From Abiotrophia defectiva ATCC 49176 (lineage in GTDB: Bacteria > Bacillota > Bacilli > Lactobacillales > Aerococcaceae): 64,000 nt of DNA. The stretch spans positions 1 through 64,000 of the forward strand of contig NZ_KI535341.1 in NCBI RefSeq assembly GCF_000160075.2, written 5' to 3'. A program made the position numbers and the translations under genes. Under the pieces are notes generated by a model. It had not been told where the DNA came from. It worked only from the letters and a program-made list of their open reading frames with translations, and ran no database searches. Positions 1,552-37,194 of the stretch are shown here, piece after piece. Position 1 is the first letter of the stretch; each line of letters starts with the position of its first letter.

Positions 1552-1579
1552 AGTGGTCCACTCCAAAGAGTGGACCACT
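1552..1579. repeat. Perfect 12-bp hairpin with CAAA loop
   Basis: agtggtccactc and gagtggaccact are exact reverse complements around the loop caaa. No T run follows on either strand, so it is not a standard intrinsic terminator. It stands just outside the insertion sequence. A second perfect hairpin with the same CAAA loop occurs at 9401-9432. Confidence 0.7.
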
Positions 1580-1620
1580 AGCTCAGGGATTCTGCCTTGT
1601 ATGTCACCCTTTCCCCACAC

Positions 1621-1650
1621 CAAAAAGCCCCTGCCCTTAGGACAGGGGCT
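1621..1650 (-). terminator. Intrinsic terminator of the cupin gene
   Basis: On the minus strand the stem AGCCCCTG / CAGGGGCT is followed by TTTTTG, directly downstream of the cupin stop codon. Confidence 0.8.
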
Positions 1651-1657
1651 ATCCCAT

Positions 1658-1957
1658 CTAGGCTTCTGGCGCTAGGTGGGATTTGATAACCATGAGTTCG
1701 CTATCTTCGACGGCTTCCAGGGAGTGTACTTCGTGAGGAGCCATGCGAATGATGACGCCAGGATAGATTTCGGCTGTCTCCTTCTCATCAGAGAAAAGGA
1801 TTCGCCCTTTGACTGGGACGACGACCACCGTATAAGGGACGTGGTGCTGGCCAATGGCTTGCCCGGCAGGTAGGACCAGGTGGGTGACTGTCTGGCTAGA
1901 TGTCTCCACCAAATGCTCAAAACGCTCAATGTCTGTGCGACCGTGATAAACTTTCAT
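1658..1957 (-). CDS. Small single-domain cupin protein
   Basis: This is a 99-residue cupin-fold protein without other domains. The start is the ATG at 1957, preceded by GAGGAG. The upstream ATG at 1975 is rejected because it would place that ribosome site inside the gene. The order of strands fits a conserved beta-barrel: a turn with GQAIGQHHVPY (metal-ligand-like histidines), then VVVVPVKGRILFSDE, then a second motif with PHEVHSLEAVED, whose histidines would complete a metal site. Proteins of this kind bind a small ligand or metal and may act as isomerases, dioxygenases or sensors. No substrate can be inferred. It is monocistronic with its own terminator. Confidence 0.7.
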   Translation of the reverse strand: MKVYHGRTDIERFEHLVETSSQTVTHLVLPAGQAIGQHHVPYTVVVVPVKGRILFSDEKETAEIYPGVIIRMAPHEVHSLEAVEDSELMVIKSHLAPEA

Positions 1958-2022
1958 ACTTAAGACTCCTCTCAACTACTTTCCTTCATTATAACACAAC
2001 ACGGCCCGCCACACCTCCAGAT

Positions 2023-2069
2023 AAACAAAAAAACCGCACCGCTTGCGTCGGCGCAAGTTGGTGTGGTTT
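2023..2069 (-). terminator. Intrinsic terminator ending the 455-nt RNA
   Basis: On the minus strand, CTTGCG-ccga-CGCAAG extended by CACC/GGTG and flanking pairs forms a long stem. It is followed by TTTTTTTGTTT. Confidence 0.85.
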
Positions 2070-2480
2070 ATGTCAATGCTCGAATTTTGCCCAGCAGCCT
2101 ATTATCCCTCTGTTGTTTAATAAGCTAATCTTGACGTTAGAGTCCCTAATCTCTTGGCGCCAAGTCTCCTCAAGTGCAGAGTTTTAACTCTGCGCTGGCA
2201 ACTGATGCTCGTGGCAAAAGTGTAGCATTTCCCTGTATATACGAAGATGCGATCGCCCGACGTCGTGATCGTCGTGGCAGCTCTTGTTCGTCAGTACAAG
2301 CTGTCATCTCCTTGGACCAGTGAAAATCCAAAAGGCAATCGTCCCCTTTGACTGCACGGGTCTTGAGCGAGACCCTCTGCCGTCCTTCTTACTTTAGAAG
2401 GTAATCCTATGAAACTATATATGACAAGGAGTCGGTACCCCCATACACGACTTCCTTGCTGAGGAGTTTAATCACGTTGC
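2024..2480 (-). ncRNA. Unidentified structured RNA of about 455 nt
   Basis: This stretch carries no convincing protein gene, yet it has a promoter at one end (TTTTCA, 17 bp, TATAAT) and a strong terminator at the other. Between them lie many self-complementary segments on the minus strand: CCTTCT-aaagta-AGAAGG, GGGTCT-cgctca-AGACCC, GCAGAGT-taaa-ACTCTGC, the palindrome CTTGGCGCCAAG, and AAGGA/GTCG pairing with CGAC/TCCTT. I compared it by eye with RNase P RNA, tmRNA, 6S RNA, SRP RNA, T-box, M-box and common riboswitches. None of their conserved cores is present. The terminator separates it from the cupin gene, so it is more likely a stand-alone RNA than a leader. A 9-codon ORF with a ribosome site (2415-2444, minus) lies inside the first hairpin. 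Confidence 0.65.
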
Positions 2481-2486
2481 ATAGGC

Positions 2487-2515
2487 ATTATAGCACGACT
2501 TGTTTCGCTTGAAAA
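2487..2515 (-). promoter_or_regulatory. Promoter of the 455-nt RNA
   Basis: On the minus strand, TTTTCA and TATAAT are separated by 17 bp. Transcription would start near 2480. The same -35 sequence and spacing occur at the nucleotidase leader promoter (39130-39158). Confidence 0.65.
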
Positions 2516-2829
2516 GGGGGTAAACTCATTTTTTTGTCAAATTCGACATTTTTTTGATAATTGTCTATTAAATCCCAGTCTTAAGGCGCTTTGGCGACCA
2601 TTTTTGCTAGTCATTTAAACTAGCCCAAGCCACCCGAAAATCGCCCCTAGCTTGGGTCAGCAATCCAAGCCTCCATTTTTCGACCTTAGTCAGCCCTCAC
2701 CATAATCTTGTCAGGCAATATTAACCTTACGCTTTTATCATCTTTGCCTACATATATGACGAATTGCAAGATAACTCATCCAATTTATAAAGAATCTTTA
2801 CAGCTCGGATTTGATAGCTCACCCCATCA
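2516..2829. other. Gene-free spacer
   Basis: I see no gene, RNA or convincing regulatory site in this AT-rich spacer. It lies between the RNA promoter and the terminator of the next gene. Confidence 0.5.
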
Positions 2830-2856
2830 AAAAAAGACCCGGCTATTGCCCGGTCT
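2830..2856 (-). terminator. Terminator overlapping the end of the three-helix membrane protein gene
   Basis: On the minus strand, AGACC-GG pairs with CC-G-GGTCT (one bulged G) and is followed by TTTTTTT. The stop codon of the gene lies in the loop, so the last codons form the stem. Confidence 0.75.
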
Positions 2857-3229
2857 CCTTATCTGCTAATTTATCTTTGACGCCAGCCACCATGTTGCGC
2901 CCCATGTCCTTAATATGAGCTAGGAGACCTAGGAGACTGTCCAAATAAGTGTCGTCACCCCGCACCGCCAGCATGACCGTCTCGCTCCCCATGTAAGCTG
3001 CTAGGAAGAACAAGAGACTATAAATCAGATTGAGCAATTGAACGCCCGTCCCCACCTGATATTGCCAGTAGGCCCAAACTTCTTGGACGCCGTAGAGGGC
3101 TAGGATTAAGAGCAAGAACCATACCGCCTTCTGCCATTCAGGCGTGAAGCGTGCCTTGCGCCGCAACAAACAATAGGCTGCCGAAGCCGTTAGGATAATA
3201 TTCACAGTCACCAGTAAGAAATTCAGCAT
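2843..3229 (-). CDS. Three-helix membrane protein of unknown function
   Basis: This 128-residue protein has three hydrophobic segments at about residues 1-21, 34-56 and 65-88. A basic loop (RRKARF) follows the first, and a charged cytoplasmic-type tail rich in D and K follows the third. The start is the ATG at 3229, preceded by GGAGG. The longer in-frame extension to 3319 would run through the promoter and is rejected. A promoter is visible 40 bp upstream and a terminator overlaps the stop, so the gene stands alone. I do not recognise the family. Confidence 0.65.
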   Translation of the reverse strand: MLNFLLVTVNIILTASAAYCLLRRKARFTPEWQKAVWFLLLILALYGVQEVWAYWQYQVGTGVQLLNLIYSLLFFLAAYMGSETVMLAVRGDDTYLDSLLGLLAHIKDMGRNMVAGVKDKLADKETGQ

Positions 3230-3266
3230 CTTACTCCCTCCTCGCGTCATCTCGTTTTCTACTACT

Positions 3267-3296
3267 AGTATAGTAAAGTTTAGGGGCCCTAGGCAA
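3267..3296 (-). promoter_or_regulatory. Promoter of the three-helix membrane protein gene
   Basis: On the minus strand, TTGCCT and TATACT are separated by 18 bp. Confidence 0.55.
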
Positions 3297-3393
3297 GGAA
3301 AATTTGGCTCCAAGGTCAAAAATCGGTCTGGAGACCGAGTCCTAGACCGATTTGAGCAGTCCTAGCCAATTTGTTAGCTTCAACACTTACTAG

Positions 3394-3421
3394 TTGCCTT
3401 TCTAGACAGACTTGCTATAAT
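3394..3421 (+). promoter_or_regulatory. Promoter of the serine-rich surface protein gene
   Basis: TTGCCT at 3394-3399 and TATAAT at 3416-3421 are 16 bp apart. A second TATAAT at 3430-3435 lacks a good -35. Confidence 0.6.
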
Positions 3422-3456
3422 GATGATAGTATAATCGCGCACAAGGAGCATCCAAC

Positions 3457-3993
3457 ATGAAAAAGGCAAAACTCATCGCCCATATTATTCTTATTATACT
3501 GGCTATCGGGACAGTGGATGTACTGGCCAATTTTAGTGGCTTAGATCTGATGAACCACCTGGATGCCTGGGTAGGCCGGCGCCCCGACCATATTTCGGCG
3601 CCTAATGCGTCTAGCCGCGAGTCGTCCAAGGACTCCTCCTCTAGCGATCACTCCAAGGAATCGTCTGAATCCAAATCGGAAAGTTCCTCTTCTAGCTCAT
3701 CCTCTTCATCCAGCTCTTCCTCATCTGAATCCTCTTCGTCATCTAGCCAATCCTCCGAGTCCCGTCCAACAAACCAAGACAACGACGACCAAGACTCGCC
3801 AACTAGTCCAAACACTCGCCAAAACGACGACTACACCGCGCCAACAAGTCCAACCACCCCGGCGCCAAGCCCAGACCCAGTTACCCCGCCAACCCCGGCG
3901 GACCCAGTGGTCGAACCCCAACCAGACCCAACACCTGACCCAACCCCAGCCCCACCAGCAGATGGTGGCGGCGTTGATGGTGCGGGGGAATAA
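3457..3993 (+). CDS. Serine- and proline-rich membrane-anchored surface protein
   Basis: The protein has 178 residues. An N-terminal hydrophobic helix (about residues 6-26, after KKAK) acts as an uncleaved anchor or signal. A Ser/Glu/Lys-rich linker follows (about 51-102, with an almost pure run of serines). The tail is rich in Thr, Pro and Asp, with PTSPTTP- and PDPTPDPTP-like repeats. The low-complexity parts suggest an extended, possibly glycosylated stalk outside the membrane. There is no sortase motif and no folded domain at the end, so it is either a stalk without a head or a remnant. The ATG follows AAGGAG at 3441. The +2-frame ORF in the same region is a shadow of the repeat codons. 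Confidence 0.7.
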   Translation: MKKAKLIAHIILIILAIGTVDVLANFSGLDLMNHLDAWVGRRPDHISAPNASSRESSKDSSSSDHSKESSESKSESSSSSSSSSSSSSSSESSSSSSQSSESRPTNQDNDDQDSPTSPNTRQNDDYTAPTSPTTPAPSPDPVTPPTPADPVVEPQPDPTPDPTPAPPADGGGVDGAGE

Positions 3994-4020
3994 GTAGATA
4001 GAAAAATCCCAATCCATAAT

Positions 4021-7030: not shown

Positions 7031-9310
7031 TTAAGATGTCTTTCTGTCCGTCTTTGCTGTGTTAGTCAATATCAAGTCTCTTCTATATTTCACCATGTAT
7101 AAAGCTAATAAAGTTACTTTAAACCCAAATCTTATTTGATTTCCCTCAATATATTCTCTTCCGTGTATACATTCATTTCGGATATTTAAAGAATTGCTAT
7201 TATACATGAAGTGATATACGAATAGTAAATCTGGAGCATTCTCAAATCCGTTTAATTCTCTATAAATATTATCTAATAGCTCTCTAAGGATTGAGCTTGG
7301 ATCCTTAAATTTCATAAACTCATCCAGGCTTTCTTTGAATGGCACGATTCCAAACAACTTCCCTAAGTGTCTAATTTCAATCTCTAATAATGGAAATAGC
7401 TGAGTTAAGTGCCCCAATGTAATATTACCTTCATATGGAATTAGTGGAAATCCTAAAAGTTCTTCTACTAAAGTATATAACTCTTTCTCCCTATCAAACA
7501 TTGCGATTGCAAGCTTAGCATTCTCCTCGAATTGTTTATGTAATACTGAAACATAGATATCTAAACTTAATATATTCATGAATTTATATCCGTACTTTTC
7601 TATAATCCCCTCCACCTGGGACTTCAATATATTATCCGTATCGTGTCTGTCGAAATTAATTTCTTTATCTTTCATAGGGAAAATCGGCCTAAGTGTAATT
7701 CTATTCACTAGATAAATAATTGCATGCTCAGATACATGTTCCATAGTAGATATCATATCTGATTCTTTAGAAATTATACAAGCCTTTGCTATAACAATTG
7801 GGTTTATCATAACGCTATTATTATATTTTTCAACTTCTACTTTTGGGACTTTAGTCATTTTTGAATACTCATGTAAAGTTTCAACTTGTTTTTGATAAAT
7901 ATTATGCTGCCAATACGCTTGAATATTTATCATGTCTTGTTTGACAATCCTCTTGTCAATATTTTGATTTGTTCTGTTAACTTCCAAGAGAAATAACATC
8001 GCTTGATAAAATAAATTAGCAACTGATATCTCTTTTACTCCTTCAATTAACTCTAAAAACTTGGCCTTTGTCATATTGTAATATTTTTGGTTAATACATC
8101 TCGCTATATCAGCATTTCCTAGGTATTGTGTCAACGTATCAATATCCTTAATTAACAATATATCTTTATACTGATTTTCTATGTAGTCCTTTACTGAACG
8201 AATTTGATTTTTGTTTATAGGGAAAGATTGTCGGAGCTCTAATAATAAGTTTATCGAGGTAATGGAGTGTATAGTCTTATAAAAATTCCTTATCACTTCT
8301 GTCTTTGTTATCTTATCCATGACTCCTTCACTAAATAACATAGCCAATATTTTATATGTTGATGAAGAGATTATATCATAGGTGTCTCCCTTGCTAATCA
8401 GTTCCATAAGTAATTTGCAATGCGTTTCAATAATTTCTAAACTCGGGTCTCTTCTATTTAACAAAAAATCAACTGACTCTATTACATAATTTGAAATACT
8501 ATGATTGAAATAACTTTTTAACTGATCTAATAAATGAGGGGTCCAACTACGATAGTCAGGGACTATGCTATCTCCGCTAGAAAACATGGGCTCTATTTTA
8601 CCTTCCCGTATTGAAATCTTCAACATGTCTAATAAAGTATTTTCCTGCCATGTCAAGTTGCTTTCTCTATCGAATAATTGGTAATCAAAGCAGTTTACTG
8701 ATAATAAATCACCCTCATAATTCTTTAAAAAAATTTCTGAAGAATTATACACCACCTTATTTAGATTATCTTCAATATTTTGTTTAGCTTCCTCAAATCC
8801 AACTAAGCTTGTATTCTCCAGATATAACAGAATTGCTTCCTTATCGTAATCAAAAGCCAGCATATTAATAGCTTGATGGAAATTTCTTTGCTTCAAGAAT
8901 CTATCATCGATAATATATTTTGTGGCATTTCCTGAATTTTGTAGTTTTGTAATCCAGACCACTAGGAATAGAATCTTGGCAAACTTTGTATTTATCTCGT
9001 CTGAGCATCTTTCTCTTTCTATGGCCCCCACATAGTATTTTGATATTAAGTATATTTCACTTAATAATAAGTCCTTAAATTGAAGATCTCGATTACATAT
9101 CTCTAAGATATTTAGAAAGCAGTGAAAAACGTGAATCAAGGGGTTAATCCTCTCATTAAAGTCACAAAATGAATCAATATCTGACAGATTATAGTTTTCT
9201 TCAATATACTCAACAAACCATTGCCAATTCTGACTATGCTCTAAAATACCATCTCCTAGTTTAACCTTGATTTCATGTCCCAAATAATCTTTGTAATTCA
9301 CCTTCGACAA
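7031..9310 (-). CDS. Large lone protein with C-terminal HEPN-like R-X4-H motif; candidate defence or stress RNase
   Basis: The 759-residue protein is soluble and mostly helical, with no signal peptide, membrane segment or P-loop that I can see. Near the C-terminus the segment NIRNECIHGREY contains Arg711 and His716 in R-X4-H spacing, followed by a helix. This is the catalytic pattern of HEPN ribonucleases, and the preceding IEIRHLGKLFG helix also resembles the HEPN/DUF4209-like C-termini of abortive-infection proteins. The remaining 650 residues are not recognised and may be a sensor. The start is a TTG at 9310 behind GGGGG. The gene is far poorer in GC than its neighbours: in sampled lines, 15 of 60 bases at 8161-8220 against 31 of 60 at 10201-10260 in guaA. 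It stands alone between core genes, which suggests acquisition by transfer. A role in phage defence is inference. Confidence 0.6.
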   Translation of the reverse strand: MSKVNYKDYLGHEIKVKLGDGILEHSQNWQWFVEYIEENYNLSDIDSFCDFNERINPLIHVFHCFLNILEICNRDLQFKDLLLSEIYLISKYYVGAIERERCSDEINTKFAKILFLVVWITKLQNSGNATKYIIDDRFLKQRNFHQAINMLAFDYDKEAILLYLENTSLVGFEEAKQNIEDNLNKVVYNSSEIFLKNYEGDLLSVNCFDYQLFDRESNLTWQENTLLDMLKISIREGKIEPMFSSGDSIVPDYRSWTPHLLDQLKSYFNHSISNYVIESVDFLLNRRDPSLEIIETHCKLLMELISKGDTYDIISSSTYKILAMLFSEGVMDKITKTEVIRNFYKTIHSITSINLLLELRQSFPINKNQIRSVKDYIENQYKDILLIKDIDTLTQYLGNADIARCINQKYYNMTKAKFLELIEGVKEISVANLFYQAMLFLLEVNRTNQNIDKRIVKQDMINIQAYWQHNIYQKQVETLHEYSKMTKVPKVEVEKYNNSVMINPIVIAKACIISKESDMISTMEHVSEHAIIYLVNRITLRPIFPMKDKEINFDRHDTDNILKSQVEGIIEKYGYKFMNILSLDIYVSVLHKQFEENAKLAIAMFDREKELYTLVEELLGFPLIPYEGNITLGHLTQLFPLLEIEIRHLGKLFGIVPFKESLDEFMKFKDPSSILRELLDNIYRELNGFENAPDLLFVYHFMYNSNSLNIRNECIHGREYIEGNQIRFGFKVTLLALYMVKYRRDLILTNTAKTDRKTS

Positions 9311-11170: not shown

Positions 11171-11176
11171 CGGTGA

Positions 11177-36720: not shown

Positions 36721-37194
36721 TTACTTTCTCCGATACTTTTCTCCCGTGAAAGGATCTGTCACTTCGAACAAACTCAGTTGTTCTGCTACCTGGTCCTCAC
36801 GAACTTGATTCCGAATGTATTCTTCTATCTTCTCCTTGTTTCGGCCTACTGTATCCACGAAGTAGCCTCGACACCAAAACTTGCGGTTCCCATAACGGTA
36901 CTTTAAATTGGCGTATCGATCAAATATCATCAGACTACTTTTTCCTTTCAGATACCCCATAAAGCTTGAAACACTTAGTTTTGGTGGGATACTGACTAAC
37001 ATATGAACGTGGTCTTTGCAGGCATTTGCTTCATGGATAATGACGCCCTTACGCTCGCATAATTCACGGATAATTCTGCCAATCGTTGCCTTGTACTTCC
37101 CATATATGATTTGCCGTCGATACTTAGGCGCGAACACGATATGATACTTACAATTCCAACTTGTGTGTGCTAAACTATCATTGTCCTTTTTCAT
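36721..37194 (-). CDS. tnpA: IS200-type transposase (HUH/Y1)
   Basis: The 157-residue Y1 transposase appears intact. It has the HUH metal motif (His62-x-His64 in CKDHVHML) and the catalytic Tyr126 in IEEYIRNQ. The start WNCKYHIVFAPKYRR is typical of the family. It cuts single-stranded ends near the subterminal hairpins. The ATG follows AGGGAGG, which is masked by pairing with an upstream segment (see 37201-37260). Confidence 0.93.
   Translation of the reverse strand: MKKDNDSLAHTSWNCKYHIVFAPKYRRQIIYGKYKATIGRIIRELCERKGVIIHEANACKDHVHMLVSIPPKLSVSSFMGYLKGKSSLMIFDRYANLKYRYGNRKFWCRGYFVDTVGRNKEKIEEYIRNQVREDQVAEQLSLFEVTDPFTGEKYRRK

Follow-up and report, generated by a model that had tools for sequence, protein, structure and literature searches.

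A structured RNA of about 455 nt very probably lies at positions 2025 to 2480, minus strand, of the stretch of Abiotrophia defectiva ATCC 49176 DNA analysed here (64,000 nucleotides; the window). It most likely represents a new, genus-restricted RNA class of narrow distribution. On balance we favour reading it as a stand-alone non-coding RNA gene whose product would act in trans through its fold; by analogy with OLE it may be a structured scaffold or protein-binding RNA, rather than one that codes for a protein or controls the next gene. The locus is presumably transcribed. This adds a candidate RNA class outside Rfam, in a probably cultivable genus, and of a size that allows deletion and probing.

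Extent of the RNA locus

A sigma-70-type promoter on the minus strand, TTTTCA-17-TATAAT, has its -35 element at 2515-2510 and its -10 element at 2492-2487, with a spacer of 17 nt. A TG one base ahead of the -10 makes it an extended -10 promoter, and the sequences TTTTCAAGCGA and TGCTATAAT are the same in the sister species. From this promoter the RNA would begin about 7 nt past the -10, and it would stop at its own intrinsic terminator, within the T run. The terminator consists of a strong GC hairpin at 2056-2034 followed by TTTTTTT, with a longer stem possible at 2068-2032.

A sequence-only reading of this DNA had described an unrecognised structured RNA with its own promoter, a strong terminator at the other end, at least five self-complementary elements and no convincing protein gene. 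These sequence features were borne out. Its coordinates were off by a few bases at most; the promoter lies just outside them. Roughly twelve hairpins or long-range helices can be drawn in each homologue. Across the six frames, no stop-free stretch survives over its full length in the homologue, and there are several frame-shifting indels.

The features of the locus are as follows; all are on the minus strand, and the helices are predicted.

1658..1957, minus: cupin-like gene, 99 aa, downstream of the RNA, with its own extended -10, TGTTATAAT, at 1988-1996
2025..2480, minus: putative structured non-coding RNA, ~455 nt; homologue at L002:1501-1978
2025..2068, minus: intrinsic terminator and T run; stem and T run retained in the sister species
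2075..2091, minus: GGCAAAAUUCGAGCAUU, potential partner of 2213-2219 and 2224-2229 in alternative fold B
2097..2125, minus: H9, GCUUA.UU/AAUAGGC, invariant GAGGGA in the loop; consensus fold
2130..2164, minus: H8, CUUGGC/GUCAAG and AGAG/CUCU, invariant loop AUUAGGGA; four one-sided changes, all pairs kept
2166..2173, minus: P1 3' arm (UUGAGGAG), pairs with 2459-2466
2176..2193, minus: H7, GCAGAGU/ACUCUGC; sister GCAGAGC/GCUCUGC, compensatory
2213..2220, minus: P2 3' arm (CUUUUGCC); in alternative fold B pairs with 2085-2091 instead
2258..2274, minus: H6, CGACG/CGUCG; sister AGACG/CGUUU, compensatory
2278..2303, minus: H5, CAGCU/AGCUG; sister UAGUU/GGCUA, compensatory
2312..2331, minus: H4, UUGGA/UCCAA, conserved loop UUUUCAC; sister AUGGA/UCCAU, compensatory
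2374..2381, minus: P2 5' arm (GGCAGAGG), closes the variable central domain; 8 pairs, with 2 both-sided and 2 one-sided changes
2384..2401, minus: H2, CCUUCU/AGAAGG; consensus fold
2425..2458, minus: H1, CAAGGA-A-GUCG-GUA, loop UGGGGG; most conserved block, two G-C to G-U stem changes
2459..2466, minus: P1 5' arm (CUCCUCAG), long-range, pairs with 2166-2173; 7 unchanged pairs and 1 one-sided change, possible in both sequences
2487..2515, minus: sigma-70-type promoter TTTTCA-17-TATAAT, extended -10 (TGCTATAAT)

Conservation and pairing

The single sequence is already more stable than expected. Dinucleotide shuffles average -128.1 +/- 6.15, which puts the minimum free energy of the RNA, -155.9 kcal/mol, at z -4.5; none of 100 shuffles was as good.

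Comparison with the sister species gives the conservation a scale. The RNA is 72% identical over all alignment columns, against 48% for the spacer upstream of the promoter and 42% for that after the terminator, where the random level is about 30%. The RNA has therefore been held by selection, and it is the decay of the spacers on both sides that serves as the control and gives this conservation its meaning.

For the two-sequence alignment, controls were made by shuffling its columns within conservation and gap classes. The consensus energy on the RNA strand is -114.0, while the shuffled alignments average -64.4 +/- 5.1 (z -9.75), and none of 100 was as low. The reverse strand also falls below its shuffles in this test, though less (z -4.97). 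The membrane protein gene and the Ser-rich protein gene, used as controls on both strands, gave z values of +0.08, +0.95, -2.82 and -2.64. Twelve conserved stems score at least 7, where the shuffles average 6.0 and have 11 at most, so that none of 60 shuffles reached this count.

In the RIBOSUM-scored consensus of 122 pairs, 94 are unchanged, 20 carry one-sided changes, 8 carry both-sided changes and none is broken, a zero that reflects in part the preference of the alifold step for consistent pairs. The covarying pairs that the sequence-only reading had proposed to look for among homologues thus appear as compensatory changes, all of them from one alignment of two sequences (the window RNA and its sister), too few for a test with the power of R-scape. 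The both-sided changes are located in P2, H4, H5, H6, H7, H9 and the stem below H4; in P2, for example, GGCAGAGG/CUUUUGCC has become GACGAAGA/UUUUUGUC in the sister. Genus-restricted RNAs, which are missed by surveys that need many homologues, can be supported in this way from two diverged alleles.

The predicted fold has several domains. P1 would join the 5' to the 3' part, P2 would close a variable central domain with at least three hairpins, and a 3' domain would contain three more. The loops UGGGGG, UUUUCAC, AUUAGGGA and GAGGGA are invariant, and we infer that a protein or a partner RNA binds them.

A second fold is also predicted for part of the RNA. UUUUGCC (2219-2213) can pair either with GGCAGAG, as in P2 of fold A, or with GGCAAAA near the 3' end. 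Fold B has this latter pairing, together with one between AAUGCU and AGCAUU, also near the 3' end, and in it UCCUUGU moves from H1 to ACAGGGA. The consensus energies of folds A and B are nearly equal (-261.6 vs -261.4). By single-sequence energy, the window RNA prefers fold A (-158.7 vs -155.4) and the sister RNA fold B (-159.2 vs -154.2). Alignment column 276 (C to U) changes along with both possible partners. Could this be a new class of large trans-acting RNA that works as a bistable switch between two mutually exclusive conserved folds? The folding models make this conceivable yet doubtful: stems equal to the strongest one of fold B are not rare in shuffles (0.6 per shuffle at a score of at least 9), so the switch is put forward as a hypothesis only.

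Distribution

In a blastn search of 76 genomes of the family, a single true homologue was found, in the sister species (G001, L002 1501-1978; 74% identity, E 5e-76). Both species have the same gene order: the Ser-rich protein gene, a small membrane protein gene, the RNA and the cupin gene. The other two genomes of the genus (G002 and G003) are without the RNA, the cupin gene and the membrane protein gene.

Covariance sub-models of the 5' 110 nt and the 3' 145 nt, searched against 395 genomes of the order, found only the sister species, and the 3' model found nothing further in 398 genomes of the phylum. With laxer filters, both models returned just noise from the 40 nearest genomes (E 0.7-0.8 for the 5' model), and the one match inspected resembles coding sequence. 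Scanning the species-level genome collection with one pattern and IMG/VR with five gave only chance matches, which neither model confirmed, and blastn against phage and plasmid collections found no homologue of the RNA. Within the collections searched, then, the RNA is narrowly distributed and is seen in two sibling species only. With so narrow a range, its role is more likely accessory than core.

Comparison with known RNAs

RNAs this large with so much conserved structure are few, and those whose job is known are important machines. Is this one of them? The sequence-only reading had seen a stand-alone RNA of no known family, either new or possibly one of the large ornate classes, and of this the stand-alone, unfamiliar RNA stood while the ornate class did not. 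Rfam 15 gave no match in the whole window at gathering level. A cmscan of 1950-2560 with permissive filters (4227 families, E up to 10) gave no meaningful match; its sole hit, mir-8250, scored 15.3 bits where the cut-off is 80, and is due to chance. ROOL, GOLLD, OLE, raiA and HEARO are thereby ruled out at the level of covariance models, without a match even at E 10. The conserved promoter -10 and terminator, the compensatory changes and the lack of an open reading frame agree with a stand-alone RNA.

RNase P type B has a similar length and 6S is likewise a single-copy structured RNA; in each of the four genomes of the genus, ordinary copies of both lie at other loci. In A. defectiva the true copies are at G000:C1:193281-193674 (RF00011, 308 bits) and G000:C1:295450-295639 (RF00013), with no further match to either in the genome. 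ARAGORN found no tmRNA in the window and one tRNA, tRNA-Leu at 11175, 8.7 kb from the RNA. The adjacent proteins have no phage-structural match in PHROGs. No description of such an RNA in Abiotrophia or Aerococcaceae was found in the literature library searched.

OLE RNA works with proteins, and homo-oligomeric particles are a feature of OLE as of ROOL and GOLLD RNAs. Like the OLE and raiA motif RNAs, which stand alone in Firmicutes, the present RNA is structured and intergenic with conserved loops. It differs from both in lacking a covariance-model match, in its neighbours, which are cupin and small membrane protein genes, and in its restriction to two sibling species. ROOL and GOLLD RNAs are long and multibranched, have no ORF and are of unknown function; a ROOL example has 659 nt, and many GOLLD RNAs exceed 800 nt (PMC12286853). 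The present RNA resembles them in being long, multibranched and free of an ORF, but it is shorter (~455 nt), matches neither model and has no phage or tRNA-island setting.

Alternative explanations

The main rival to a stand-alone gene is a long cis-acting leader, in which the RNA would act as a sensor (of a ligand, a ribosome or uncharged tRNA) and the cupin gene (1957-1658) would be gated by the terminator at 2068-2025. The cupin gene is on the same strand, with its start about 67 nt downstream of the terminator end, and it is co-inherited with the RNA, both being present in the window genome and its sister and both missing from the other two. The two nearly isoenergetic consensus folds are what a switch would need, and in both species the H4 loop is able to pair with the 3' arm of the terminator. 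That pairing is weak, however, at only 5 bp, and the alternative folds leave the terminator out. No T-box or riboswitch family of Rfam 15 matches, and what the sister species shares is an entire 2.5-kb segment, not merely the RNA and the cupin gene. Above all, both species keep TGnTATAAT between the terminator and the cupin gene, amid otherwise decayed sequence. This conserved extended -10 promoter past the terminator argues that the RNA is a separate unit, with the cupin-like gene probably outside it, and we regard a leader as unlikely.

A trans-acting regulator that, like RNAIII of Staphylococcus aureus, binds mRNAs through unpaired conserved stretches is slightly less likely. RNAIII has C-rich loops that pair with Shine-Dalgarno sequences, and it is similar to the present RNA in length, in its many hairpins and in its intrinsic terminator. 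One 20-nt stretch, AUAUAUAGUUUCAUAGGAUU (2422-2403), does not vary, and fold A leaves most of it unpaired. The invariant hairpin loops here are G-rich or A/U-rich, however, rather than C-rich target-binding loops, and no peptide frame is conserved. The lone outside match to an invariant stretch (TCATAGGATTACCTTCTAAAGT), 37 nt antisense within gpmI of another genus (G018, L003 1501-1537), has no counterpart in the A. defectiva genome at an equal threshold and is probably due to chance. That the RNA serves as mRNA for a small protein or a leader peptide is very improbable. Such a message would use an AAGGA followed after 8 nt by an AUG (2444-2442), which are well spaced, conserved in both species and start a short frame within H1. 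This frame, however, is 9 codons long here against 18 in the sister, the two differing by a 2-nt indel and by amino-acid changes, and no other frame survives end to end. We give equally little credence to a functionless remnant of an intron, IS-associated or phage RNA in a region brought or broken by the IS256 copies nearby at 1-1478. The surrounding segment, 1552-4017, is about 80% identical to the sister genome against 93-94% elsewhere, as expected of horizontally exchanged DNA. Retention of compensatory pairs together with a promoter and a terminator is not expected of a remnant, no intron, omega-RNA, tracr or phage RNA family of Rfam matches, and in the sister species the gene after the cupin gene is a different one, not IS256.

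Genomic surroundings

Segment 1552-4017 stands out in the window as DNA that was either exchanged or has diverged unusually far. Within it, the cupin gene is 97.7% identical to that of the sister at the DNA level and the membrane protein gene about 80%. This combination of divergence and near identity suggests that the segment was probably exchanged between diverged lineages. Neither the membrane protein nor the cupin has relatives in the plasmid collection, and the membrane protein has none in phages.

The small membrane protein gene beside the RNA has no Pfam match. The gene at 3457-3993 (+), common to the sister species and also lacking a Pfam match, encodes a protein that looks membrane-anchored and has a long Ser-rich and then Pro/Asp/Thr-rich tail. 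Of the two IS256-family copies at 1-1478, one is cut by the edge of the window, and the transposase of the other is split in two frames at about 900-933. An IS200/IS605 transposase at 36721-37194 has no counterpart in the sister genome. A 759-aa protein encoded at 7034-9310 (-), in DNA of 30-31% G+C, has no counterpart at the syntenic position of the sister species. It has no match in Pfam, PHROGs, NCBIfam or PADLOC, and carries a C-terminal motif, NIRNECIHG, which we take to be reminiscent of HEPN-like domains.
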